Shown: piece by piece, positions 779-26,858 of the stretch | Layout: every line of letters begins with the position of its first letter | Position numbering within the stretch: the first letter of the stretch is position 1 | Origin: Anaeromyces robustus | Lineage: Eukaryota > Neocallimastigomycota > Neocallimastigomycetes > Neocallimastigales > Neocallimastigaceae | Assembly (NCBI GenBank): GCA_002104895.1 | Contig: MCFG01000200.1 | Span: 95,001-123,060 of the forward strand | Length of the DNA stretch: 28,060 nucleotides | Reading direction: 5' to 3' | Made by a program: the position numbers and the translations under genes | The notes under the pieces: model-generated | What the model saw: the letters and a program-made list of their open reading frames with translations, nothing else | What the model was told of the DNA's origin: nothing | Databases searched by the model: none

Positions 779-4506
<3,728 letters not shown>

Positions 4507-4697
4507 TTTATTATAAATTTCTGTATTTTATTCTGTATTTGTTTCTGTATTTTATTTCTGTATTTCTTTATAGAATTACATGGAATAAAATTAGAAACTT
4601 TAAGAAAAAAAATTATATAATATTTCTTTATTTTTCTATGAGATTCATTTTATATCAAAATATCTTAGTTTCTAGCAATTTTTATTATTTTTTATGA
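4507..4697 (+). pseudogene. Degraded presenilin C-terminal end
   Basis: Just after the in-frame stop (4504-4506) another + frame encodes a hydrophobic stretch ending in IIFLYFSMRFILYQNILVS and SNFYYFL (4620-4697). This resembles the last presenilin membrane segment and its usual FYFAT...QFYI-like C-terminus. Between the stop and this segment lies a short tandem of TTTCTGTATTTTATT-like units (about 4518-4573) where the codons for the conserved Pro-Ala-Leu motif would be expected; no PAL is visible in any frame. The simplest reading is a host gene whose 3' end decayed by a frame change plus simple-repeat expansion, beside the retroelement debris that starts near 4700. An unannotated terminal exon is the alternative. 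Confidence 0.55.
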
Positions 4698-4940
4698 ACT
4701 TTTATTTTTAAAACTATTTTTCCGCAAAAAGTATAAATAGGTGTAAAACTTTTAGTCAAAATATTTTCTTTGTGCTTTTATTCTTTTAATAACTTTCATA
4801 TATATTAGTAATAATTAATTCATAAGTAGTTCGAAACACTACAAAGGTTAGTTATTATTAATTTTTAATAATTAATAAAACTATATTCTAATAAAACATA
4901 TTTTAAATAAAAAATAAAATAAAACTTAAACTTAAATCTT
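4698..4940. other. Retroelement remnant with TATA motif
   Basis: No coding frame is visible. The string AAAAAGTATAAATAGG at 4727-4741 matches the TATA context of the gypsy-type LTR regions at 23120-23134 and 25459-25472, which suggests a decayed LTR promoter end. The rest is AT-rich with no recognisable boundary. Confidence 0.35.
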
Positions 4941-5089
4941 ACTAATATATATATCTCGACACCGACCTTTCGGGTTAATAAAGGAAAGGTGTTCTGATAT
5001 TGCAACAAGTATCTTTTATATTTTATTTTGTTTGTGTTTACTTCAAATCTTGGTGTCAATTGTAATATTGGAACTACCGTTCCGTTACA
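4941..5089 (-). repeat. 150-bp TGTAACGG module, copy 1 (LTR-like)
   Basis: On the - strand this begins TGTAACGGAACGGTAGTTCC and ends with GGTGTCGA followed by a TATATATTAGT tail. A second copy lies on the + strand at 23650-23801. The two outer thirds are nearly identical and the AT-rich middle differs. Both copies keep a hairpin (ACCTTTC ... GAAAGGT, 12-nt loop). It abuts a copia integrase fragment, so it sits inside an older retroelement. It may be a short LTR, but I could not find a matching target duplication. Confidence 0.6.
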
Positions 5090-5608
5090 TCCAGTATAAC
5101 AAAGTCTTTGTACAAGAAATAATGGTTTGATTATATCTTTCTTCTAAACCATTATTTTCTGAATTATAGGGAGGTGAATATACTTTTGATATACCAAATT
5201 CGTTACAAAAATCATTAATTTTCTTATTATTGTATTCCCTTCCCATATCTGATTTAAAAATTTTTATTTTCCTATTCTTATTATTATTATTTAGTAATTT
5301 AAATGCATGTATGATAATATCCACTGCTTCTGATTTATTTTTAAGTAAATATAACCAACATTTTCTACTATATTCATCAATGATGGTTAATATATACTTT
5401 TTCCCAGTATAAGATTCCTTTACTGGTCCTATAATATCAGAGTGGATAATTTCTAGTACTTCATTGGCTTTTGGTGTTATTTTATTATGTGGATTTCTTT
5501 TCATCTTTGCAATTTTACATTCATTGCAAAAATTTTCTTTAATATTATGTAATTTTAAATAATTCTTTAAATCTTCCGTATAAAAATGGCCAAGCCGTCG
5601 ATTTTAGT
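5090..5608 (-). mobile_element. Ty1/copia integrase fragment (fossil)
   Basis: The - strand encodes a pre-integrase HHCC zinc region (RRLGHF, then H and C-x2-C in LHNIKENFCNEC). A retroviral-type integrase core follows, with HSDIIGP, a TIIDEYSRKCWLYLL stretch, an Asp in KSDMGREY and an NGLEERYNQT block. The order and spacing are those of Ty1/copia pol. It is a fossil fragment: one side is capped by the 150-bp TGTAACGG module and the other by a MULE end, and no other copia part (gag, protease, RT, RNase H) is present. Confidence 0.85.
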
Positions 5609-6916
5609 GGGAGAAGTGCATTTCGGAATCGTACATTATTGTATGTGGCTTAATGATAAAATATTTTATAGCCACATTTATCAAAAATAAATAAATAAAT
5701 AAATAAATACATAAATAATTAAATAAAATTAAATATTATTTTATTAATAATCTTTTAAATAATATTTTGTTAAAAATTGTATATAAAAAAGGACTTGTTC
5801 TGTTATCATTAAATAAATAAAACTATTATATTTTAAAAATAATTATTTACATAAATATAATACTAATTATTGGAATTATTATAAGAATATAGAGCATATA
5901 ACAAATAATGCTTCAGAATCTTTTAATAATTACTTAAATAATTTATTTCCAAAAAAACCTTCATTTTTTTAAATTAATTTATATATTAAAAAAAGAAGAA
6001 TCCTTATCCTACAATGATTACGAAAGGAGAATTAATGGAATCTGGAGAAAAAAACAAAAAATAATTAGAAAAACTGATGAAATAAAAAATATAATTGAAA
6101 ATTATAAATATATGGAAAAAGATTATATTTATAATGGATATGATAGAAAAGATATTGTTGAATTATGGTATAATTGCTTAATTGATTTAAATAATAAAAA
6201 ATACTAATTTTTTATTATAAATTAGTATTTTTCTAACCTTTTTAAATTATATGTTATGCTTAATTATTGTTCTTGTAACAATATAAGGAAATAAAATTAC
6301 TTTAAGATTTTTTTAGCTAGTTTTTAGCTAAATTATATCTAAAACTGATCTATTTAACTATAATTAAAATATAATTAATATCAATATCAAAATTTTTAGT
6401 ATAAAAATATTATCAATATCAATGTCAATCTTATTTATAAAAATAATAATATCAATTATGTTTAAAAAATCATTAAATAAATATTTTTTTATTTTTTATT
6501 ATTTTATTAAAATTTTAGTTATTATTATTACAATTTAATAATAAAATAAATTAAAATATTTTATATAAATAATTTTAAATATAAATGAAAAATATTATAA
6601 AATATTAAATAAAATAAAAGACTTTGAAAAAATATGATTTTTGTTTGTTTGTAAAAGTTAATGAATAACTTGAATCTTTCTTTTTTAAATTTTTTTTGTA
6701 TTTTTTTGTATTTTTTTTTTCAATTCTTTGATTTTATTATAATTTTTTTAATTATTTTTATTTCATTTTATTTCATTTTTTAATTTGTAATTATTAATTA
6801 TAATTTTTAATTATTATTTATTTATTTATTCATTTATTTAATATATAAAATTTCATACGCCACAGATTCCGAAATGCACAATTCCGAAATGCACGATTCC
6901 GAAATGCACCACATTC
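5609..6916 (+). mobile_element. Non-autonomous MULE copy M1 (internally deleted)
   Basis: The left end GGGAGAAGTGCATTTCGGAATC and the right end (three GATTCCGAAATGCAC-type units, then CACATTC) match the two different ends of the complete MULE at 14041-17612, in opposite orientation. Inside are the 33-bp subterminal hairpin (5644-5676), one copy of the GATAACAGAACAAGTCC subterminal repeat (reverse, 5791-5807), the transposase C-terminal codons and the GATATTGATATTAAT minisatellite. The first two thirds of the transposase are missing. The flanking 9-mers (gattttagt and ccatttagt) agree at only six positions and belong to different retroelements. Confidence 0.85.
5850..6207 (+). pseudogene. MULE transposase C-terminal remnant in M1
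   Basis: This corresponds to about the last 115 residues of the transposase at 14911-16335, starting near HKYNTN and including NNASESFNNYLNNLFPKKP with the third catalytic residue (Glu). The frame shifts at an extra-T run around 5962-5971, and a nearby AAAAAA run also differs from the intact copy. The upstream junction at about 5835-5850 fuses transposase sequence directly to the subterminal repeat, the same junction as in the M2 copy. Confidence 0.8.
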
Positions 6917-12236: not shown

Positions 12237-12921
12237 GTTAACAAGGCTAGTGAAATTCAAACAATCACGTGATCATAATCCACTCGGTTATTGATTGGTT
12301 CAAGTTGGTTTTTCTCAGAGAAACAATTCTAATGACTTTATAAGTCAAGAAGTATATTATTAAATTAATAATTACGGTATAATTAAGAAAGAACATACCT
12401 AACCTGGCGGTCGTACAAATCCTGATAAACAGCCAAACTGGAGAAACATCAGACCCGTAGAGTCGAACCAAAGAACTTATGTATACTAAGACAACGCCTT
12501 AACAATAAAGTATAAAAGCTGGTTTGACATTATATTAGGGAATAAATTCAAAATGTATTTTACATCTGTATAAACACATTCCATAAGGGTTAGGCTTATT
12601 ATCGTTACTTTTTGTTTGATTGCGTTTGTTTCTTTAGTTTAGGTATTACTATTGGATATATCACTTCGTCACAGTAATAAATCTTTAATGTACCTGACTT
12701 TCTCTATGCTATAATATATAAATAAAATTTTATGAAAAAATCTATGTTAATTATGTGGTCGATACTACGTTATTTAATACTCTTCGTAATTTGATATGCT
12801 ACTTTTTCTATAAAAGGAATCTCATATATATAGAAATCGTATTTAAATTTAAATTTTATTCATTTATTTAAATCGATTTAATATTTAATAGATTAATACA
12901 TGTTATTATATTAAAATTCTA
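12237..12921. other. Non-coding stretch between old MULE and viral cluster
   Basis: No convincing gene is seen. The stretch is less AT-rich than its left neighbour, with TCACGTGA at 12267-12274, a TATA-like GTATAAAAGC at 12509-12518, and a moderately GC-rich patch at 12400-12480 of unknown origin. It could be the outer flank of the viral cluster or an unrecognised LTR. A palindrome CACGTAATATTACGTG lies just outside it at 12070-12085. Confidence 0.4.
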
Positions 12922-13401
12922 TTAATCTAATTCTTCCCAATCTTCGAGAAGAATACCAATTTTGGGTTTTTTCGATGGGTTGTTAGAATTCTCTTCTTCG
13001 CTAGTGGTGGCGATAGCCGAAATATTTTCTAACAAATTTTTTTGAATTTTGGCCGAATTTTTGGCCACTTCTTCAATATCAGGGATCCATTTAGTTTCTA
13101 ACTTTTCCCTGATTTCCTTTTCTCTTCTTTGGACCGCTCTTTTAATTCTTAACTGTTCTCTACGTTCGTAGAGTTTCCTCATGCGGTCCCTAGTTCTTCT
13201 GATGGCGTTGTTGTGCCTTTCGAACTCTTGAGCTAAAGCATAGAGTTCGTGATTTAAATATTTCTCCTCTTCTTCGCCATCTGAAAGAATTAAGTGAGGA
13301 TAATTTCTAATACAAAAATCTTCATTTCCAGTATTATTACTACTGCTACTACTACTACCGCCAGTAGCAGCAAAATACTTGCTTCTTCTAATAGGAGCCA
13401 T
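12922..13401 (-). CDS. Unknown coiled-coil protein of the viral cluster (159 aa)
   Basis: I do not recognise this family. It has a basic start (MAPIRRSKYF), a Ser/Asn-rich linker, an acidic stretch (GEEEEKY), and a long highly charged helix (about residues 50-115, dense in Arg, Glu and Lys) that should form a coiled coil. A nuclear-localisation-like KKPK follows, then an acidic tail. It is the last frame of the minus-strand series and shares its richer composition. The charge pattern would suit a nucleic-acid-binding or scaffold protein, but that is inference. It belongs to the viral fossil. Confidence 0.6.
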   Translation of the reverse strand: MAPIRRSKYFAATGGSSSSSSNNTGNEDFCIRNYPHLILSDGEEEEKYLNHELYALAQEFERHNNAIRRTRDRMRKLYERREQLRIKRAVQRREKEIREKLETKWIPDIEEVAKNSAKIQKNLLENISAIATTSEEENSNNPSKKPKIGILLEDWEELD

Positions 13402-13623
13402 TCTCTAAACAAAAATTTTTCCAAGTTTATTATTTTTTAATATAATTAAATTTTAAAATTAAAATGAGAAAAAGATTTAAAACACAAACTGAAAAATTTG
13501 AGTTTATATAAACCCAAATTTAAAATTGATTGGTAATTTATATTATAATTTATTTATTACAATTGATTGGTAATATATTTATAATATATTAAAATATAAA
13601 TTTATTTTATTATTTTAATATAA

Positions 13624-13687
13624 TGACAATTACAATTACAATTACAATGACAATTACAATTACAATGACAATGACAATTACAATGAT
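13624..13687. repeat. Hexanucleotide repeat (ACAATT/ACAATG)n
   Basis: About ten units of ACAATT and ACAATG lie just past the end of the adjacent minus-strand frame, in the gap between 13401 and 13690. Confidence 0.9.
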
Positions 13688-13689
13688 GA

Positions 13690-14040
13690 TTATGGATTAC
13701 TATGTGGTAAATCCAAATGGAAATTCGATTTAGAGAGATAGATTGAATTTTCACTGTTATCATCGGATACATCGTCGTTTAAATATATTAATTTATTATT
13801 ATTTTTATCGGTTAACCATAATTTTAACGGGCTTCCGTCGTTATTGTATACTTTATAATATATATATTCGTCATCACCTATTGTTTGTTCGGTTGAACTG
13901 TAGTTTTTATTGTATATACTTATTTTATAAGTATTAGGAACCCGTACAGGGTTATCCACTATAAATACTACAGTATTTTGATGATTTACTTTTACTCCGT
14001 TTACACTGTAAATAAATTCACTAAATGGTGTAAAAGTATT
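13690..14040 (-). pseudogene. Part of a viral-cluster protein gene cut by the MULE
   Basis: This is a minus-strand open segment ending in a stop at 13690. It encodes a Tyr/Asn/Asp-rich, probably beta-rich sequence with no match I recognise. It borders the left MULE end, with the target duplication aaaagtatt at 14032-14040. It has the same orientation and similar composition to the segment on the other side of the insertion (17613-18320). Fossil; the MULE is the visible disruption. Confidence 0.6.
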
Positions 14041-14047
14041 GAATGTG

Positions 14048-14107
14048 GTGCATTTCGCAATCGTGCATTTCGGAATCGTGCATTTCGGAATTGTGCATTT
14101 CGGAATC
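14048..14107 (+). repeat. Left terminal iterons of MULE (4 x 15 bp)
   Basis: Four head-to-tail copies of GTGCATTTCGGAATC (first copy GCAATC, third GGAATT). M2 has two at this end (8796 onward) and M1 three (ending 6909). Confidence 0.95.
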
Positions 14108-14529
14108 TGTAGCGCATGAAATTTTACATATTAAATAAATGAATAAATAAATAAATAAATAATAATTAAAAATTATAATTAATAATTATAAATTAAAAAA
14201 TGAAATAAAAATAATTAAAAAAATTATAATAAAATCAAAGAATTGAAAAAAAAATACAAATAAATACAAAAAAAATTTAAAAAAGAAAGATTCAAGTTAT
14301 TCATTAACTTTTACAAACAAACAAAAATCATATTTTTTCAAAGTCTTTTATTTTATTTAATATTTTATAATATTTTTCATTTATATTTAAAATTATTTAT
14401 ATAAAATATTTTAATTTATTTTATTATTAAATTGAAATAATAATAACTAAAATTTTAATAAAATAATAAAAAATAAAAAAATATTTATTTAATGATTTTT
14501 TAAACATAATTGATATTATTATTTTTACT

Positions 14530-14745
14530 AAATAAGATTGACATTGATATTGATAATATTTTTTTACTAAAAATTTTGATATTGATATTAATAATATTTT
14601 TATACTAAAAATTGTGATATTGATATTAATAATATTTTTATACTAAAAATTTTGATATTGATATTAATAATATTTTTATACTAAAAATTGTGATATTGAT
14701 ATTAATAATATTTTTATACTAAAAATTTTGATATTGATATTAATT
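14530..14745. repeat. Minisatellite in MULE, about 38-bp unit
   Basis: Five to six tandem units of ACTAAAAATTTTGATATTGA followed by TATTAATAATATTTTTAT. The same array occurs with different copy number in M2 (about 10865-11020) and M1 (about 6370-6440, opposite strand). Confidence 0.88.
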
Positions 14746-14910
14746 ATATTTTAATTATAGTTAAATAGATCAGTTTTAGATATAATTTAGCTAAAAACTA
14801 GCTAAAAAAATCTTAAAGTAATTTTATTTCCTTATATTGTTACAAGAACAATAATTAAGCATAATATATAATTTAAAAAGGTTAGAAAAATACTAATTTA
14901 TAATAAAAAA

Positions 14911-16335
14911 TTAGTATTTTTTATTATTTAAATCAATTAAGCAATTATACCATAATTCAACAATATCTTTTCTATCATATCCATTATAAATATAATCTTT
15001 TTCCATATATTTATAATTTTCAATTATATTTTTTATTTCATCAGTCTTTCTAATTATTTTTTGTTTTTTTTTCCAGATTCCATTAATTCTCCTTTCGTAA
15101 TCATTGTAGGATAAGGATTCTTTTTTTAATATATAAATTAATTTAAAAAATGAAGGTTTTTTTGGAAATAAATTATTTAAGTAATTATTAAAAGATTCTG
15201 AAGCATTATTTGTTATATGCTCTATATTCTTATAATAATTCCAATTATTAGTATTGTATTTATGTAAATAATTATTTTTAAAATATTCTAAAAATTCCAA
15301 AAAATTGCTATAGTTTTTTTTTTTGCATGCACTTTTGATTTTGAAATAAATATCAAATATATATTCAGGATTTATAAAAGGCAAATTTGAAATAGCTTTA
15401 TAATATACATATACATCATTATTATTATCTACTTCATTAAAACATAATTTATTTTTTTGTTTCTCTAAAGATTTTTTGTAATGCCAAACACAATATTTGA
15501 TATTTAAATTAGGAATAATTTTTCTTGCGGCATTGGATATAGCTATTTCAAAATCACAGTGTAAATTAATTTGGGTAGTTATACTATTTTCCCTAAATTT
15601 ATTTACATTTTTTATTATTTCTTTAAATAATGTTTCATATGTGGCCTCTTTTTTATTTTTTAATATAGAAATTGAAGTAGTATAAAATTTATTTAATTCC
15701 GAAACGTAAGTTCTTGTTATAAATACTTGGTAGCTAAACTTAGGCGCTACATAAAAAGTACCATCAGCAAATATATCTTCATAATATTTCGAAAATAATT
15801 TTGCTTGAAATGGTGATTGAAAAATTATTATATTAGGATTTTTGAATATCATAAAATCCTCTCCTCTTTCTGTTTTATAATATATTGATTCATTTGGAAT
15901 TTCATCAAATGTTGTAATATCTGTATGTATTTGCTTATTTATATTTCTAAGTATTTGGGATCTAATTGTATCATACTCTGGACATATGAATCCCATGTTT
16001 TGAGAAACTTCGTTATATATACGCCTTGGTTTTAAATCCATTGGAATTGTGCTTTTTCTGATTTCCTCTTTAATTTTATGTTTTATTAGTGACAGAGATG
16101 CATCAAATTCTTTTTCAAGATGATTATGGAAACTTTCATATTTTAAAATTTCATTTTTATCATTTAAAATAATGAAAGATTTACATTTATTTGCTGTTTT
16201 GTATTCTGTGCATTTGTATACTTTTGAATTATCTTTTTTTTTAAGTGAAAAATTAAATTTATATTTTTTATTAATAATGAGTTGTTTTTTGCCTCGATTG
16301 GTTTCACTAAATTCAATTTTTTCAATTTCCTCCAT
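14911..16335 (-). CDS. MULE transposase with FLYWCH-type zinc finger (474 aa)
   Basis: Mutator-like DDE transposase that would cut and paste this element and probably the deleted copies M1 and M2. The N-terminal zinc finger spans about residues 25-75 (Cys42, Cys51, His70 and His72 in the FLYWCH/WRKY-GCM1 pattern), for DNA binding. The MULE core follows: Asp191 in FADGTFYVAP, Asp261 in LHCDFEIAISNAARKIIP, the CVWHYKK Cys282/His285 motif, and Glu380 in NNASESFNNYL. The C-terminus is basic and helical, with no SWIM zinc finger. The length is short to normal for the superfamily. One uninterrupted frame fills the gene, with no introns. The ATG at 16335 is followed at once by conserved MEEIEKIEFSE, which also starts the old relic at 8584, supporting this start. 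All three catalytic positions are present, so activity is plausible. Confidence 0.93.
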   Translation of the reverse strand: MEEIEKIEFSETNRGKKQLIINKKYKFNFSLKKKDNSKVYKCTEYKTANKCKSFIILNDKNEILKYESFHNHLEKEFDASLSLIKHKIKEEIRKSTIPMDLKPRRIYNEVSQNMGFICPEYDTIRSQILRNINKQIHTDITTFDEIPNESIYYKTERGEDFMIFKNPNIIIFQSPFQAKLFSKYYEDIFADGTFYVAPKFSYQVFITRTYVSELNKFYTTSISILKNKKEATYETLFKEIIKNVNKFRENSITTQINLHCDFEIAISNAARKIIPNLNIKYCVWHYKKSLEKQKNKLCFNEVDNNNDVYVYYKAISNLPFINPEYIFDIYFKIKSACKKKNYSNFLEFLEYFKNNYLHKYNTNNWNYYKNIEHITNNASESFNNYLNNLFPKKPSFFKLIYILKKESLSYNDYERRINGIWKKKQKIIRKTDEIKNIIENYKYMEKDYIYNGYDRKDIVELWYNCLIDLNNKKY

Positions 16336-16399
16336 TTATAATTATAATATAGTAACTAATTATTTTTTTATTAATAACCGTTTAAAAAAATATTAAAAA

Positions 16400-17470
16400 A
16401 ATTATTTATTTATTAATTATTATTTAATTAATTATTTATTTATCTTATATTTATATATTTTTTTAAATAATTGCTAAATAAATATTAAATAATTATTATT
16501 TATTTATTTATTTATTTATAAATTAATTATTTAGTATTTATTTATTTATTTATTTATCATATATTTATAAATTATTATTTAGTATTTATTTATTTATTTA
16601 TTTATCATATATTTATATGTTTTTTTTTTTAAATAATTGAAAAATAAATAATAAATAATTATTATTTATTTATTTATTAATTAATTATTTAGTATTTATT
16701 TATTTATTTATTAAATATTTATATATTTATTATTTATTTATATATTCAATAATTGTTAAATAAATATTAAAGAATTATCTATTTATTATTTATTTATTTA
16801 GTATTTATTTATTTATTATTTATTAAAATAATTATTTATTTAATAATTATAATTATTTAATAATTACTTATTTATTTAGTATTTATTTATTTATTATTTA
16901 TTAAAATAATTATTTATTTAATAATTATAATTATTTAATAATTATTTATTTATTTATTTATTTATTATTTATTACAATATTTATTTATTTAATAATTATA
17001 ATAGTTTTATTTATGTAATGATAACAGAACAAGTCCTTTTTTAAATAATTTTTTTAACAAAATATTATTTAAAAGATTATTAATGAAATAATATTTAATT
17101 TTATTTAATTATTTAATTATTTAATTATTTAATTATTTATTTATTTATTTATTTATTATTTATTAAAATATTTATTTATTTAATAATTATAATAGTTTTA
17201 TTTATTTAATGATAACAGAACAAGTCCTTTTTTAAATAATTTTTTTAACAAAATATTATTTAAAAGATTATTAATAAAATAATATTTAATTTTATTTAAT
17301 TTTATTTAATTATTTATTTATTTATTTATTTATTATTTATTTATTAAAATAATTATTTATTTAATAATTATAATAGAATAAAGTCCTTATTTATATACAA
17401 TTTTTAACAAAATATTATTTAAAAGATTATTAATAAAATATTATTTTGATTCTATTTTATTTTGATTTTA
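16400..17470. repeat. MULE subterminal AT-rich tandem region
   Basis: TTTA-rich repeats (TATTTATTTATTTA, TAATTATTATT) grade into larger units that each carry AATAGTTTTATTTATTTAAT, GATAACAGAACAAGTCC and AAAATATTATTTAAAAGATT. Full cores are at 17020-17040 and 17211-17235, with a decayed third near 17372-17450. M2 has two cores (11588, 11747) and M1 one (5791-5807, reverse). No gene lies here. Confidence 0.85.
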
Positions 17471-17529
17471 TTTTATTTTGATTTTATTTAGTTATTTATA
17501 TATTTATTTATTTATTTATTTTTGATAAA

Positions 17530-17562
17530 TGTGGCTATAAAATATTTTATCATCAAGCCACA
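17530..17562. other. Subterminal 33-bp hairpin of MULE
   Basis: TGTGGCT and AGCCACA pair around an AT-rich, partly self-pairing loop. The same 33 bp is kept in M2 (11872-11904) and, inverted, in M1 (5644-5676). Confidence 0.8.
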
Positions 17563-17575
17563 TACAATAATGTAC

Positions 17576-17605
17576 GATTCCGAAATGCACGATTCCGAAA
17601 TGCAC
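17576..17605 (-). repeat. Right terminal iterons of MULE (2 x 15 bp)
   Basis: Two copies of GATTCCGAAATGCAC (the reverse complement of the left unit), followed by TTCTCCC and the target duplication. M2 also has two and M1 one. These are probable transposase binding sites. Confidence 0.93.
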
Positions 17606-17612
17606 TTCTCCC

Positions 17613-18320
17613 AAAAGTATTATTAATATTGTTGAGTGTAACGCCACCAAATTCAATTACTGGTTCAACGTTAACATCAAAGTATCCAAAATTTACTGGT
17701 GTTGGTGTTTCATCTTCATCTTCCTCATCTTCTTCTTGATCGTCTTCACCCTCTCTTGTCTTGCTATCTCCGATGAATTTAATGGTTTTAAGATTACGAT
17801 TATCGGGAGCAACAAATTCAAGATCTTGTGGATTATCATTGGTATCTAGCACGGCCCATCGACCGTTTTTATTAACTACTAAATTATTGGCTAATTTGGT
17901 AGCAATATTAGAAACATCAATTTCAATACTGTTCATATAAGTTTTACCGTTAGTATTGTAACCAGTAAGTGGAGTAAAAACTGTACTTGGTAATTCAATT
18001 TTTCCTTGATGGTTTGCGTGAGCGATATCAATCACGGAAGCATCGATAGAACAAGTAGCTGTATTAGATTCTAACATTGAAGCTGGGTTAATTTCTGAAA
18101 CATTAATATAGATGGAATTATAAAAAGATTGATTAGGATCTTCTTTTCCATCGATAATATGATCCCAAGTGGTATCTGGGATTTTAATAATTCCTTCGTC
18201 ATCTACATTACTTTGAGCGACGGTAATATCACTTGAATTTAACTTGACGGAAATGGCGTTATCTTTTAAACTTGGTGTTGGTGTTGGTGTTGGAGAATTG
18301 TTAGATTCATTGGTGGAGCT
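17613..18320 (-). pseudogene. Beta-repeat viral-cluster protein gene, cut by the MULE
   Basis: The open minus-strand segment runs from about 18320, behind an intron-acceptor-like TTTTTGTTAG, to the MULE end; an internal ATG lies at 18077. It starts Ser/Asn-rich, then PTPTPTP. Two related units of about 60-70 residues follow (each a G-x-I-x-IP/LP strand, later NSIY/EI-x-V-SEI/SNI), then a linker with an acidic run (EDDQEEDEEDEDE) and TPTP, and another beta-rich part. It resembles fibre-, spike- or adhesin-like beta architectures; I recognise no family. Its position downstream of the capsid gene suggests a virion accessory protein, which is inference. Fossil, interrupted by one insertion. Confidence 0.6.
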
Positions 18321-18395
18321 AACAAAAATAAAAATTGTAATTATAAAATAGAATTAATAATTGTTAATTGTATATAATATATATAATCATTAAAA

Positions 18396-18662
18396 TTAAA
18401 ATTGGAAAGGTGGATCTAAGGTAGCAGCAGTAGTATCACGTTTTTGTTCCTCTGCAGTTTCACCAATTAAAGCGTGTACGAGTGTTAATCCTGGATATTT
18501 AATAGTTTGTGGTGCTCTAGTATCTGAAGGGACGTAGGAACGATCACCGACAAAGAAGGAATAGACTTTCCAGATAGCTTCATTAATTTTAGTGAAAACA
18601 CATTTACTCCAGTCAATAACTTTTTTAACTACTCCGCCTATGAAAGATTTAGAGGAAATCAT
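18396..18662 (-). CDS. Small viral-cluster protein (88 aa), unknown
   Basis: The start ATG at 18662 follows the stop codon of the preceding frame with no gap. The N-terminal 40 residues look amphipathic, with aromatic residues (VIDWSKCVF, AIWKVYSFFVGD). The rest is polar and ends in DPPFQF. A WxxxV/W pattern also occurs in the preceding protein (WWNPVDWVVWIDKK), so membrane-active or capsid-lining roles are conceivable but unsupported by homology. Part of the viral fossil; open as it stands. Confidence 0.5.
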   Translation of the reverse strand: MISSKSFIGGVVKKVIDWSKCVFTKINEAIWKVYSFFVGDRSYVPSDTRAPQTIKYPGLTLVHALIGETAEEQKRDTTAATLDPPFQF

Positions 18663-19625
18663 TCATTCGCCAAATGGAGTATTAAAACAAATATTGTACT
18701 CAGCGTCAACACAACAACTGAATCTATATTCGTCTAAACCTAAACCAAGATTGGTTAAATCAACATCAGCACCGAACCAGAAATAACAATCACCTTGATG
18801 TAAATCTACAGCAGTTTTATCTTGTTCATAATTTTCTCTGTCATCGTTTAAAACCATAATAGTTTCATCGCCATGTTTAAAGAACCAATAACCAGTTTGA
18901 TCGAGATCATAACGACCACCAGCTTGTAAAGTAACACATTCTTTAATTTTGTTAACTACAACACCACCAACGGCGGTAACAATAGCAAGAAGAGATTCGG
19001 CGATAGCACGTGTTTCACGAGACATTTCACCACGTTGATTTACAATTTTTCTACGTAAAGTATCGGGATCTGCCCAGTGATAAGCAAAAGTAGTTGCATG
19101 AACAGCTTCTTCACCTACTGTGGTATTACTTATTCTTTCCAGTAAACCAAGTGGTATAGCACTAACAATAACTCTACAATCTTCTTTCGATAATTGACCA
19201 TCTTTAGTGATGAATAAATATTCTGCATCGTATTTTGGAACTCCGAAGGCGGAAGTCACGGTGTCATAAACGACGTTGTAAGCGCTTTCTATTTTTTTAT
19301 CAATCCATACTACCCAATCGACAGGATTCCACCAAGCTCGAGTAGCATCACGTAAATCTATCTCCATAGAATTTCCTAAAGAATTTCGAAGTTGAAGACT
19401 TCTTTGTGTAGGAGCATTACTTTGAACTTCTCCGATATTGGCTTCTACATTCATAGTACCATCTTCTAAATGAATATTTTCTTGTAGATTAACACCATTG
19501 ACATTAATAGAATTAGAATCACCAGCAATAAATTGTTTATTGATAATAACTGTACCACTGGTACTACTACCACTGCCACTTTCACCGCTAGTTGTAGAAC
19601 TTTTTATAGATTTTATATATTTCAA
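18663..19625 (-). CDS. Viral-cluster protein (320 aa), unknown
   Basis: I do not recognise this family. The N-terminus is Ser/Gly/Thr-rich (residues 8-25). A beta-looking part (GTVIINKQFIAG, NSINVNGVNL) follows, then a tryptophan-rich amphipathic segment near residues 98-112, a mixed alpha/beta middle (CRVIVSAIPLGLLERI), a hydrophobic Ala/Val/Gly segment near 210-225 (LLAIVTAVGGVVVNKI) that could insert into membrane, and a Cys-containing beta-rich end (CYFWFGADVDL, RFSCCVDAEY). It is third in position after the capsid-like frame and 28 bp from it, so the two are probably co-expressed. A minor capsid or entry protein is possible, by position only. The frame is open; part of the fossil. Confidence 0.55.
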   Translation of the reverse strand: MKYIKSIKSSTTSGESGSGSSTSGTVIINKQFIAGDSNSINVNGVNLQENIHLEDGTMNVEANIGEVQSNAPTQRSLQLRNSLGNSMEIDLRDATRAWWNPVDWVVWIDKKIESAYNVVYDTVTSAFGVPKYDAEYLFITKDGQLSKEDCRVIVSAIPLGLLERISNTTVGEEAVHATTFAYHWADPDTLRRKIVNQRGEMSRETRAIAESLLAIVTAVGGVVVNKIKECVTLQAGGRYDLDQTGYWFFKHGDETIMVLNDDRENYEQDKTAVDLHQGDCYFWFGADVDLTNLGLGLDEYRFSCCVDAEYNICFNTPFGE

Positions 19626-19653
19626 TATATAATTATATAATTAGTTTTTACAG

Positions 19654-20673
19654 TTAATTTATAATAATTAAAATACTTACGACTTTAGATTTTCTTAAAC
19701 CACGGAAAGTACAAGAAACTTCAGCTTCTACGTTGAAATAAACAGTTCTTGGATTAGAGGTTGTTTCTATATCTGCTGGGTATAAACCAACAAGAAGAGT
19801 TGGTTTGAAATTGATAGTGGGATCTTCTTCTAAGAAACATGGATTATTACTGATAGCTGGAGAAATATTGTTTAACATAGTAGCAATACTACGATCATTT
19901 AATACCGTAGAATGAGTAATTTGATCAATGGAAGAGGAATCAAAAGTTGGAATATATTTGAAAGCAGCATCAGCATTAGAATATTGATTATACCAAGATT
20001 TAAGTTGAGCTGTACTTAACCATTGGGATTTTTCAGCAAGTGTTTTTGGTTTTAACCATCTAACAATAGAACAATTTTGACCAATACTAACTTGTCTAGA
20101 TTCAGCACTGCTGTAGGTAGTAATATCAGTACCTACAATACAGTATAAACCATCATTATCGGTAGATTTTCCGATATAATCACGGTTTTTAGGACCGTTT
20201 GGAGCAGCAGTACTGATAGGATCGTCGTTATAAACACCATTGGTGTTTAAAATAAGTTGTTTAGAATTAAGACCAGTTCTATCCCAAGCTGTGTAAACGG
20301 TGAAGGATTGATAACCAGTACTATTGGTATCACCGACAGTGACATTATATTTAGTTGGGATTAATTTAACTTTGATATTATCAATTTTAAATTCATCATA
20401 CATATTAGCATAGGATTGATAAAATTCTGATTTTCTTAATAAATCATAAATGTTTAATGGGAAAGTTCCTACTTCTACCGTTCTTCCACCATAGGTTCCT
20501 TGAACACATTTACAACTAATTTCAGTGGGAATATTCATAACAAATGAAGCTTGATCGGCTTGTTGTTTAGCCGCCTTCATTTGTCCGTAACTTCTTTTCC
20601 CGTAGGAACTTCCATATTTCTTTTTATAATATCTTTTATATCTTCTTTTATAATAACTTCTCCAACTGGCCAT
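19654..20673 (-). CDS. CRESS-DNA-virus-like capsid protein (339 aa), viral fossil
   Basis: The N-terminus (residues 1-31) is a dense Arg/Lys/Tyr/Ser stretch (RSYYKRRYKRYYKKKYGSSY), the nucleic-acid-binding arm typical of circovirus-like capsid proteins. The rest reads as a single jelly roll with characteristic strands: MYDEFKIDNIKVKLIPTKYN, then FTVYTAWDRTGL, a REQ-like RQVSIGQNCSIVRWLKP, EKSQWLST, and a C-terminal VEAEVSCTFRGLRK. YDEY/F-IDKVKVK, TAWDR and TFRG-RK are familiar from CRESS capsid proteins; this is recalled pattern knowledge, not a search result. The frame is open from ATG to stop. A GTAAGT donor-like site lies at its 3' end, so spliced expression is possible. The gene diverges from the + frame at 21030. 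Confidence 0.8.
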   Translation of the reverse strand: MASWRSYYKRRYKRYYKKKYGSSYGKRSYGQMKAAKQQADQASFVMNIPTEISCKCVQGTYGGRTVEVGTFPLNIYDLLRKSEFYQSYANMYDEFKIDNIKVKLIPTKYNVTVGDTNSTGYQSFTVYTAWDRTGLNSKQLILNTNGVYNDDPISTAAPNGPKNRDYIGKSTDNDGLYCIVGTDITTYSSAESRQVSIGQNCSIVRWLKPKTLAEKSQWLSTAQLKSWYNQYSNADAAFKYIPTFDSSSIDQITHSTVLNDRSIATMLNNISPAISNNPCFLEEDPTINFKPTLLVGLYPADIETTSNPRTVYFNVEAEVSCTFRGLRKSKVVSILIIIN

Positions 20674-21029
20674 AATTTATTTAATTTTTACTATTGTTTA
20701 TTTAATTTAATTAATAGATTTATTTAAAATATATTTATATATTCACTTATCTTTTTAATAGAAAGGTTAGAATTTCGAATTCTAATAGGTTAGATTGTAG
20801 TAAAAAACAAATTTTTATAGATATAGAACTAAAGTCTAGAACAAAAAAAATCACGTGAAATAACGGATATTTATAGTAATTCCGAAAATTAAACTTTATC
20901 ATGTGATATTAATTTAAAATGGATGATCCAATCATAAGAGTTAAAATTTAATTTTAATCTAAATGTTTTCTCTATTCTTTTCTTTTCCTCTCTTTATTTA
21001 ATTATAATTATTTTGTTTATTTTAGGATT
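20674..21029. promoter_or_regulatory. Divergent intergenic region between capsid-like gene and + frame
   Basis: These 356 bp separate the two divergent starts. They contain TCACGTGA (20851-20858), a related ATCATGTGAT (20897-20906), and a pyrimidine-rich 35-mer at 20954-20988 repeated downstream of the + gene. TTTATTTTAG precedes the + start by four bases and resembles an intron acceptor. Likely a bidirectional promoter. No Rep-type origin stem-loop was found here. Confidence 0.5.
20954..20988 (+). repeat. 35-bp pyrimidine-rich repeat, copy 1
   Basis: It begins TTAATCTAAATGTTTTCTCT and continues ATTCTTTTCTTTTCC. Copy 2 at 21860-21894 differs at one base; a shorter diverged copy 3 lies at 21975-22005. 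The copies bracket the + strand frame. Confidence 0.85.
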
Positions 21030-21761
21030 ATGGAAACCGCTACTGCTACGACTACTACTACCACTGAAAATTATGAAAATGGTCCCTTTGTAACTCAACA
21101 ACCATTGAATCCACCAGAAAATGAGGATAAAACTCAACAAAATTCTTTTGTTGTCTTGGAAAACACGAAAAGTTTGGAATTTAAGGATGTTTCTTCTGTT
21201 GATACGGTGGATACCGTAGAATATAATGAAGAATTAAATAAGTTTGTTAAAGAATCTGAAGAAATTAATAGAATGGTTAATGAAGAAGGTGAAATTTTAA
21301 AGTTAAGAGAGGAGTATGAAGATGTCAAGAAATTTTATTCTGAATTAAAAGGAATTGACCAGTACGACATCACCGAAAAAGATTTTAAATATTGGAATTC
21401 AGATTATGTCGGTCATTGGTTTAGACTTTTTATTTACAATTCCAGTGAAATTATGGTTTGTACAGCTTTGGTTAATGAAAGAATCCAAATTCGTAATTTG
21501 GATATTGTTATTAAAAAAAGAATGGATAGAAAAAAGAAATTCAAAGATGGTATTTTTAAATACCTTAAAAATGAACATCTTCCAATTGTAATTAAAGAAA
21601 ATGATGAATATTGTAATTGTTCTTCAGATTTTATTCAATGGCGTTTTAAATGTCATTTAATTCGCTTTGGTTTTATAAAAAGTGTTTTAAAAGAAAAATT
21701 TAATTTAAATTATAATGATTATAAAACTTATAAAGATGTTGAAATTCATTTTAATTTGTAA
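21030..21761 (+). CDS. Viral-cluster + strand protein (243 aa), unknown
   Basis: The N-terminus is a low-complexity Thr-rich run (TATATTTTTT), then a Pro/Gln/Asn-rich segment. An acidic, helical, coiled-coil-like region follows (about residues 65-110, NEELNKFVKESEEINRMVNE), then a more globular C-terminal half with aromatic motifs (KYWNSDYVGHWFRLFIY), a basic KKRMDRKKKF and a CNC near residue 197. I see neither rolling-circle motifs (HUH, Walker A GxxxxGK) nor any other enzyme signature, so it is not a recognisable Rep. It diverges from the capsid-like gene and shares its composition, so it probably belongs to the same element. Open frame. Confidence 0.6.
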   Translation: METATATTTTTTENYENGPFVTQQPLNPPENEDKTQQNSFVVLENTKSLEFKDVSSVDTVDTVEYNEELNKFVKESEEINRMVNEEGEILKLREEYEDVKKFYSELKGIDQYDITEKDFKYWNSDYVGHWFRLFIYNSSEIMVCTALVNERIQIRNLDIVIKKRMDRKKKFKDGIFKYLKNEHLPIVIKENDEYCNCSSDFIQWRFKCHLIRFGFIKSVLKEKFNLNYNDYKTYKDVEIHFNL

Positions 21762-21859
21762 ACCAATGTAATATTAATTAATAAATATTAATAAATAAAA
21801 AATAAAATAAAGAATAAAATTAAAAAAATAATAAATATTTTAGTTTGAAGTTGAAGCCC

Positions 21860-22005
21860 TTAATCTAAACGTTTTCTCTATTCTTTTCTTTTCCTTTCCA
21901 AAAAAAATATTTTATATATTTTTATAATTCGTTAATTAACTAACTAACTAATATTTCAATGTATCAGTCTTGCCCTAATCTAACGTTTCTCTATTTTTCT
22001 TTTCC
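21860..22005 (+). repeat. 35-bp pyrimidine-rich repeat, copies 2 and 3
   Basis: Copy 2 (21860-21894) begins TTAATCTAAACGTTTTCTCT. Copy 3 (21975-22005) is CTAATCTAACGTTTCTCT plus a T-rich tail ending TTTCC. They lie beyond the stop of the + frame and may mark promoter elements, a transcription stop region or the edge of the viral element. Confidence 0.75.
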
Positions 22006-22008
22006 AAT

Positions 22009-25796: not shown

Positions 25797-26858
25797 ATGT
25801 TTGGAAATTCCTATAGAGCTACCACTCCTGCACCTGAAGTTCCCATGGCTGAAGAAGTTGAACAACTTAGGCAAGATGCTACCAGAACTGCTGCTGAAAT
25901 TATCGATGGTGTGCAAGCAAACTTTGTTTCAACTAATGATTTTACCCAATATTATGAACAACTAGAATCTAGGCTAAATAATATTTATTCTGCTATAGAA
26001 AATATTAATCAAAGATTAAATACTGAAAATACTGCGCCACAAGGATATGAAAGATTTGAAACTCCTAGACCATTACTTGGTAATCAAGATTCTGATGATA
26101 GTTCTACCGACACAAACTTCGATTTAGATAGAGATGTAATTATGAAAAGTAAATTTTCTGCTCCTTTAAATCAAGTTCCAGAACCAGGATTTTTCTCAGG
26201 AAAAACTTCGGAAACTGAGTTATTTTGCCAACTTTGTGAAGATACATTCAGAACTACGCCACATAAATATTTACCAGAAGAAACAAAAATTAATTTTGTC
26301 AAATCACGTTTAAGAGATTCTGCAAGAAACTGGTACTTAACCAAGTATAGAGGCAATATTAAACCAGGAACAATGTTTGAATTATTAGCTGGTTTAAAAG
26401 CTGCTTTTTCAAATGTCGCAAGCTATAAATTAGCTAAAATTAAATTAATTTCCTTAAAACAACATTATGGAAAAATAAATGAGTATATAGATGAATTCAG
26501 GAGTTATACTCGTTTATTTAACTGTGAAGAAGAACCATTAGCTTTAATATTTTATAATGGATTACACCCTAAATATCAAGAACAAGTTCAAAAGTTAGAT
26601 GTATTTCCAGCCACATTAGAAGATATTATTACTACGTGTATACTATTTGAAAACTCTATTAGTGTAAAAAATTCCATTAGACAATCTAATAGCAATAATA
26701 AAAATAACAAGAAAAGAAATTCCAGCCACCATTCTAATTACAAAAATAATTACAAAAATTATAATAATAATTATCACAAAAATTATTCTAATAATCAGAA
26801 TAATTACAACAAAAATTCTGATGTTAGTAAAGCCACGAAAATTACTACAAAAAATTAA
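25797..26858 (+). CDS. Ty3/gypsy Gag (353 aa), fossil
   Basis: An N-terminal helical coiled-coil-like region is followed by a retrotransposon-Gag domain of the Ty3/gypsy type (about residues 130-290). Its landmarks are PEPGFFSGK, a W in ARNWYLTKYRG, FAF-like AAFSNVASYKLAK and the ISLKQHYGKINEYIDEFRSY block, then FYNGLHPKYQEQV. In place of a CCHC zinc knuckle, the last 60 residues are a basic Asn/Lys/Tyr-rich tail. Pol begins in an overlapping frame. Confidence 0.88.
   Translation: MFGNSYRATTPAPEVPMAEEVEQLRQDATRTAAEIIDGVQANFVSTNDFTQYYEQLESRLNNIYSAIENINQRLNTENTAPQGYERFETPRPLLGNQDSDDSSTDTNFDLDRDVIMKSKFSAPLNQVPEPGFFSGKTSETELFCQLCEDTFRTTPHKYLPEETKINFVKSRLRDSARNWYLTKYRGNIKPGTMFELLAGLKAAFSNVASYKLAKIKLISLKQHYGKINEYIDEFRSYTRLFNCEEEPLALIFYNGLHPKYQEQVQKLDVFPATLEDIITTCILFENSISVKNSIRQSNSNNKNNKKRNSSHHSNYKNNYKNYNNNYHKNYSNNQNNYNKNSDVSKATKITTKN

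Follow-up and report, generated by a model that had tools for sequence, protein, structure and literature searches.

A probable endogenous fragment of a large CRESS-DNA virus in the genome of Anaeromyces robustus

The DNA analysed here (the window) is the 28,060-nucleotide terminal piece of a 123,060-base contig of Anaeromyces robustus, an anaerobic gut fungus whose genome comprises 70.2 Mb in 769 contigs. Its middle part carries a capsid gene and neighbouring viral genes, considered here as a fragment of a circular Rep-encoding single-stranded (CRESS) DNA virus. Along the minus strand, these are arranged as a reversed gene of 243 amino acids (aa), the capsid gene, a gene of ~350 aa in two pieces, a fibre-like gene in two pieces and a gene of 159 aa; the host annotation places one gene model, BCR32DRAFT_301510, in the cluster. 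A preliminary description of the sequence had taken 12922–22008 as a multi-gene viral cluster, with at least four further frames downstream of the capsid and a divergent one opposite it. Same-strand frames of 320 (325 stop to stop), 88, 266, 474, 146 and 159 aa were found downstream and the 243-aa frame faces the capsid; the capsid and its neighbour genes are read as viral, whereas the 474-aa frame is a MULE transposase within a non-viral element.

The capsid gene occupies 19654–20673 of the minus strand as the open 339-aa frame reported previously. Homology searches yielded a family of 283 proteins, comprising the window's own and 282 relatives from the protein catalogue (119 rows listed without the window), which reach 85% identity to the window capsid; with the best other homologue at E 3.2e-188, the frame cannot be attributed to chance. 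The sequence blocks singled out earlier (MYDEFK, YTAWDR.G and FRGLRK) are invariant or nearly so across 45 aligned members, window included. The Arg/Lys/Tyr-rich arm is equally evident, with 53% Arg+Lys+Tyr over residues 1–40 of the window's own protein, compared with a median of 15% beyond residue 40 in these 45 members. The AlphaFold2 model of the window capsid (mean predicted local distance difference test score 80.5) forms a jelly roll, and the best 50 rows of its structural comparison are all viral capsids (50/50), porcine circovirus 2 included. Circo_capsid was the sole Pfam family in the capsid alignment at E ≤ 0.01, the threshold applied to Pfam matches in all alignments, and was matched by 20 of the 45 members (best E 7.6e-8), so that both the structural and the profile check proposed in the preliminary description came out in favour of a viral capsid. 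Collectively, homologues, alignment, model, Pfam and structural comparison indicate that the 339-aa frame is, as modelled, a single-jelly-roll capsid with a basic N-terminal arm. No capsid relatives were found in phage records or among PDB sequences, and no bacilladnavirus capsid appeared among the best 50 structural rows, an absence that excludes nothing. At the gene's end (~19590–19685, minus strand), the capsid frame enters a splice-donor-like GTAAGTAT, and an acceptor-like CTAG lies ahead of the next frame; judged from these signals, a spliced capsid extension is conceivable.

A free relative, L035, was the sole confirmed locus in one scan of bacterial and archaeal genomes. It is a contig of 7,761 bases that had been binned with a dairy-cattle duodenum genome assigned to Bacilli; its ends share an exact 141-bp terminal repeat, so that it closes to a 7,620-bp circle, and 141 is presumably the assembler's word length, as expected of a circle. 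Thirteen frames of at least 60 aa are present, seven of which were taken as genes, in the order 639-aa Rep, 108 aa, 211 aa, reversed 201 aa, 350-aa capsid, 236 aa and 152 aa. The capsids of window and circle are 48% identical, and the window's 159-aa gene matches the circle's last gene (152 aa) with E 2e-12. On sequence comparison, the capsid and last gene clearly appear in the same order in both, the reversed gene less surely. Within L035, a 24-base stretch of the Rep gene recurs exactly in the intergenic region before Rep (91–114 and 724–747).

The circle's Rep has 150 catalogue relatives (120 listed), with sizes of 472–714 aa among the matches listed. Each of the 37 Reps aligned (the circle's 639-aa protein and 36 relatives) has all three HUH motifs together with Walker A, Walker B and motif C, so the lineage encodes a CRESS-type Rep composed of an HUH nuclease and a superfamily-3 helicase; some of these Reps have the same contig size as the nearest capsids. 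Motif I of the circle's Rep is of the TYP type and that of the circovirus-like Reps on contigs C222 and C130 of the fungal genome of the FTLN type; TYP, HxH and YxxK together form what we take to be the geminivirus Rep pattern. Gemini_AL1_M was matched by 6/37 aligned Reps (best E 1.4e-4) and the Gemini_AL1 nuclease profile PF00799 by none of the 37. The circle's Rep itself matched Pfam at chance level, in a single family, and just three PDB sequences weakly (E 0.21 at best, all of them unrelated proteins of coiled-coil or kinetochore type). Its helicase part is 31% identical over 193 residues to a fungal-genome gene of 410 aa, which in turn matches Gemini_AL1 with E 7.9e-10. Three catalogue Reps (P0185, P0200 and P0217) carry a long C-terminal tail. 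Pairing of capsid and Rep was tested indirectly, by exact equality of longest-contig sizes between the 119 listed capsid rows and the 120 listed Rep rows. Among the matches listed, 11 of 54 capsid rows on contigs of at least 5 kb equalled a Rep row's contig in size (10 distinct sizes), compared with a mean of 0.57 equalities and a maximum of 3 in 120 shifted comparisons. Nine capsid rows on such contigs are at least 60% identical to the window's, and five of them (7.7–13.2 kb) equal a Rep row in contig size, at 8,344, 13,156, 11,833, 7,900 and 7,731 bases. Judged from these contig sizes, the window virus group may exceed the 4–6 kb of Bacilladnaviridae.

The remaining viral genes of the window lie on both sides of the capsid. 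Downstream on the minus strand, the N-terminal part (320–325 aa) of the ~350-aa gene spans 18663–19640 and its 88-aa C-terminal part 18396–18662, cut off by a premature in-frame stop; the two frames represent one split gene because the single-frame relatives P0122–P0124 span both, and Pfam contained no family matching P0122. The fibre-like gene, so named by our own reading and matched by no family, has its N-terminal part at 17613–18353 (minus strand; open frame listed as 17553–18353) and its C-terminal part at 13690–14040 (minus strand); the latter matches the same end of a second copy, on contig C178. At 12922–13401 (minus strand), the charged 159-aa gene is homologous to a 161-aa frame on C178 as well as to the circle's last gene. 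Two NCBI gene models, P0121 and P0125, were rejected as real proteins since they join pieces of separate frames, and were kept for alignment only. On the other side, an intergenic stretch (20674–21029), defined by its position, separates the capsid from the divergent 243-aa gene (21030–21761, plus strand), which weakly matches the circle's 201-aa gene and has the same place and orientation. This gene is flanked by the 24-base motif AGAATAGAGAAAACRTTTAGATTA at 20955–20978 and 21861–21884 (minus strand); the pattern was picked by eye in the window, so that its second copy is the finding, and no match occurs in the C178 stretch examined.

The fibre-like gene is interrupted by a MULE DNA transposon of 3,572 bases (14041–17612, minus strand), which is not viral. 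Its 474-aa frame contains a MULE/FLYWCH transposase (14911–16335; Pfam MULE, E 2.4e-9), and the element has imperfect repeated ends and a 9-bp target duplication, AATACTTTT, read from the sequence at 14032–14040 and 17613–17621. Target duplications of MULEs usually measure 8–11 bp. Because of this insertion, 3.6 kb of the stretch reported earlier is non-viral. In base composition, G+C reaches 28–36% at 17.5–21.0 kb and is 5–22% in most of the window, so the earlier statement that the whole cluster lies in less AT-rich DNA holds for the former region and fails for the inserted element (5–21% G+C). On the right of the viral stretch, dispersed host repeats start at ~22,535; on the left, DNA common to the window and C178 stops at 12,882. 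The exact integration borders were found on neither side. With viral genes in a 123-kb contig, host repeats to the right and both a stop and a transposon inside viral genes, the locus has the character of an endogenous viral element. Elsewhere in the window (25797–26858 and 5085–5504) are a retrotransposon gag (Pfam, E 6e-8) and an integrase-like fragment recognized by eye, both ordinary fungal mobile elements.

A second copy, on C178, retains part of the ~350-aa gene, the fibre-like gene and the 161-aa gene in the window's order and is 80–85% identical as DNA; no capsid was found on it. Ratios of non-synonymous to synonymous substitution (dN/dS), obtained by simple count, are 0.16, 0.24, 0.18 and 0.32 in four segments. 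That of the fibre C-terminus is 1.26, and those of the window capsid are 0.69 against L035 and 0.74 against C222, all from divergent alignments and of little weight. As a reading of substitution counts, the pattern between window and C178 fits better with two separate arrivals of related viruses than with a copied, decaying host segment. The open capsid frame and the host gene model BCR32DRAFT_301510 might point to co-option of the capsid and its neighbours in the service of the fungus. One neighbour gene is split by a stop and another by a transposon, however, and the low window/C178 ratios are equally explained by selection in the virus before integration, which leaves co-option highly improbable.

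Capsid relatives occur at six places across the genome, window included; circovirus-type Reps give seven matches on five contigs, and the long Rep's relatives also give seven, of which the weakest has E 0.03. The genes for a capsid and a Rep of circovirus type are divergently oriented on C222, and C130 has a Rep and a capsid (two frames for each) in line with a fibre-like frame and others. Rep and capsid genes scattered through a single genome, together with the position of the window copy among transposons, are what a capsid-bearing transposon or plasmid-like selfish element would leave, moving between chromosomes of the fungus and forming no infectious particles. Against it, the capsid copies differ widely (41% between window and C222) and show no near-identical burst, although the Reps of C222 and C625 are 98% alike, and the catalogue relatives lie on contigs of at most 13,156 bases among the matches listed, with one further relative a circle. 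A quick capsid tree was built from 119 rows, comprising the window, L035, C222, a piece of C130 and all but four of the 119 catalogue rows (115), those four being dropped because of their length. In this tree, the window falls within a 22-row clade with catalogue sequences (Shimodaira–Hasegawa approximate likelihood-ratio support 100), apart from C222 and C130, which sit outside it on long branches in unsure positions. A selfish element of this kind is therefore considered improbable. Two loci on C130, L021 and L023, differ by an apparent rotation, L023 having the order capsid, fibre-like gene, 314-aa gene, Rep end and following gene, a pattern that pieces of circular genomes would show if the circles had been opened at different points. 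A separate element in L022 (C130:35901–42000, at 1527–4937) has a 410-aa Rep of geminivirus type, opposite which lie three frames (172, 170 and 176 aa) that have no relatives among the loci compared; from its sequence, it is possibly a second kind of integrated single-stranded DNA virus. In L028 (C388), Rep and the next gene are fused in one 540-aa frame (4057–5679).

Among known systems, Circoviridae (PCV2, bat circovirus) share the single-jelly-roll capsid with a basic arm, as the Circo_capsid matches also reflect. Their genomes of ~1.7–2.1 kb encode Rep and Cap according to the available portion of PMC12819777, unlike the 7.6-kb circle with its seven frames. The circle-type Rep, with TYP, HxH, YxxK and helicase motifs and the Gemini_AL1_M matches, resembles those of Geminiviridae and Genomoviridae, such as the fungal SsHADV-1, although the capsid here matches Circo_capsid and the Rep is of the longer size given above. 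Gemycircularviruses measure 1.8–2.4 kb in the part of PMC10224137 available, against the circle's 7.6 kb. Bacilladnaviridae, whose hosts are eukaryotic algae, are among the larger CRESS viruses, and their ~4–6 kb genomes, as given in the accessible text of PMC11945456, are smaller than the circle; the same text, as we read it, puts CRESS families without solved capsids at ~1.5–5 kb. The 7,620-bp circle exceeds the sizes stated there for CRESS families, and, with kin on contigs up to 13.2 kb, these sequences go beyond that range. Integrated CRESS genes are known from microbial eukaryotes (fungi and protists) and are mostly Rep, with 302 Rep and 3 capsid sequences tabulated in the portion of PMC3198968 at hand; unlike those, the window keeps a capsid and neighbouring virus genes in order.

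The Circo_capsid matches and the circovirus-type Reps near the capsids on C222 and C130 could alternatively mean that window and circle derive from ordinary circoviruses or genomoviruses and that the extra genes are host DNA acquired at integration. This is largely contradicted because those genes recur: the last one is shared by the window, C178 and the free circle, and the ~350-aa gene is found again on C178 and as three catalogue proteins; we regard the idea as extremely improbable. No description of viruses of this type in gut fungi was found in the titles and abstracts listed from open-licence literature. A DNA virus of the chytrid Batrachochytrium reportedly exists, and was not found in that literature search. 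The nearest published observation comes from transcriptomes of another gut fungus, Pecoramyces, in which a signal was assigned to gemycircularviruses (PMC9501391, with a single-stranded DNA listing in PMC10224137, each as far as the available text goes). No relative was confirmed in a collection of viral contigs, which was searched with the alignments of the capsid, the circovirus-type Rep and the long Rep as well as with the C222 capsid and the circle's Rep. We do not take this as a sign of rarity, since even circovirus-type Reps went undetected in that collection.

Taken together, the interval 12882–21761, without the MULE at 14041–17612, is very probably an endogenous fragment of a CRESS-DNA virus of anaerobic gut fungi, belonging to an undescribed large lineage (7.6 kb for one circle and perhaps 8 to 13 kb for the closest kin). 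Several observations weigh against this conclusion. The window's own capsid matches Circo_capsid with E 0.019 and 15.7 bits, below the curated cut-off of 36.2 bits, and the fold alone is not diagnostic of CRESS viruses because RNA-virus jelly rolls rank level with circoviruses among the structural rows. Searches of the window that used the circle's Rep, seven Rep relatives and the genome's circovirus-type Reps as queries detected no Rep at E ≤ 0.01, and the capsid–Rep linkage of the nearest kin consists of equal contig sizes, with 43 of the 54 capsid rows and four of the nine nearest having no equal Rep partner among the matches listed. No counterparts of the circle's 108- and 211-aa frames were found in the window at this threshold, the ~350-aa gene has no partner on the circle, and comparison of the fibre C-terminus with the circle's 236-aa frame gave no convincing match. 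The three catalogue relatives of the ~350-aa gene lie on contigs of 2,787, 1,262 and 4,218 bases, none the same size as the contigs of the listed capsid rows, and the match between the 243- and 201-aa genes is weak (E 2e-4 as a single comparison, E 0.05 in another). In addition, no origin nonanucleotide stood out in the scans: NANTATTAC has six matches on the circle against 4.25 expected, close to chance, and the scan of the C222 stretch showed some enrichment (12 against 6.63) with no clear site.

The proposal of the preliminary description, an integrated genome of a larger, possibly undescribed CRESS-like virus, is thus upheld by the seven-frame circle, with capsid and last gene matching in order, and has to be narrowed to an incomplete, damaged copy that contains a transposon and no detected Rep. 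That the virus infects this host lineage, as also proposed, is inferred from integration. In its free form, such a virus would carry single-stranded DNA whose rolling-circle replication starts at a nick made by Rep, its capsid would package that DNA through the basic arm, the fibre-like protein may bind the fungal cell and the ~350-aa protein could be a minor component of the virion or serve in entry. Pieces would have entered chromosomes through Rep-made nicks or host end-joining and then decayed.

An integrated piece in a fungus and a free circular relative in the cattle gut together suggest that there are DNA viruses specific to gut fungi. We lean, with some reserve, towards the broader view that gut fungi host a family- or order-level CRESS group whose genomes of about 7.6–13 kb encode several proteins in addition to Rep and capsid, among them a variable fibre and a 350-aa protein, and in which a long Rep of geminivirus-like type is combined with a circovirus-like capsid. 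To our knowledge, genomes of 7.6–13 kb would be the largest among CRESS viruses, which are the textbook minimal viruses. If this holds true, a lineage with at least seven genes would reveal how genomes of this kind become larger, and it would raise the question of how a circovirus-type capsid holds several times the usual amount of DNA. The anaerobic gut fungi, key fibre degraders of herbivores, would gain a DNA virus, and a large CRESS group would emerge as a frequent source of integrated genes. Integrated copies in a culturable fungus would also suggest a host for hundreds of hostless catalogue proteins.

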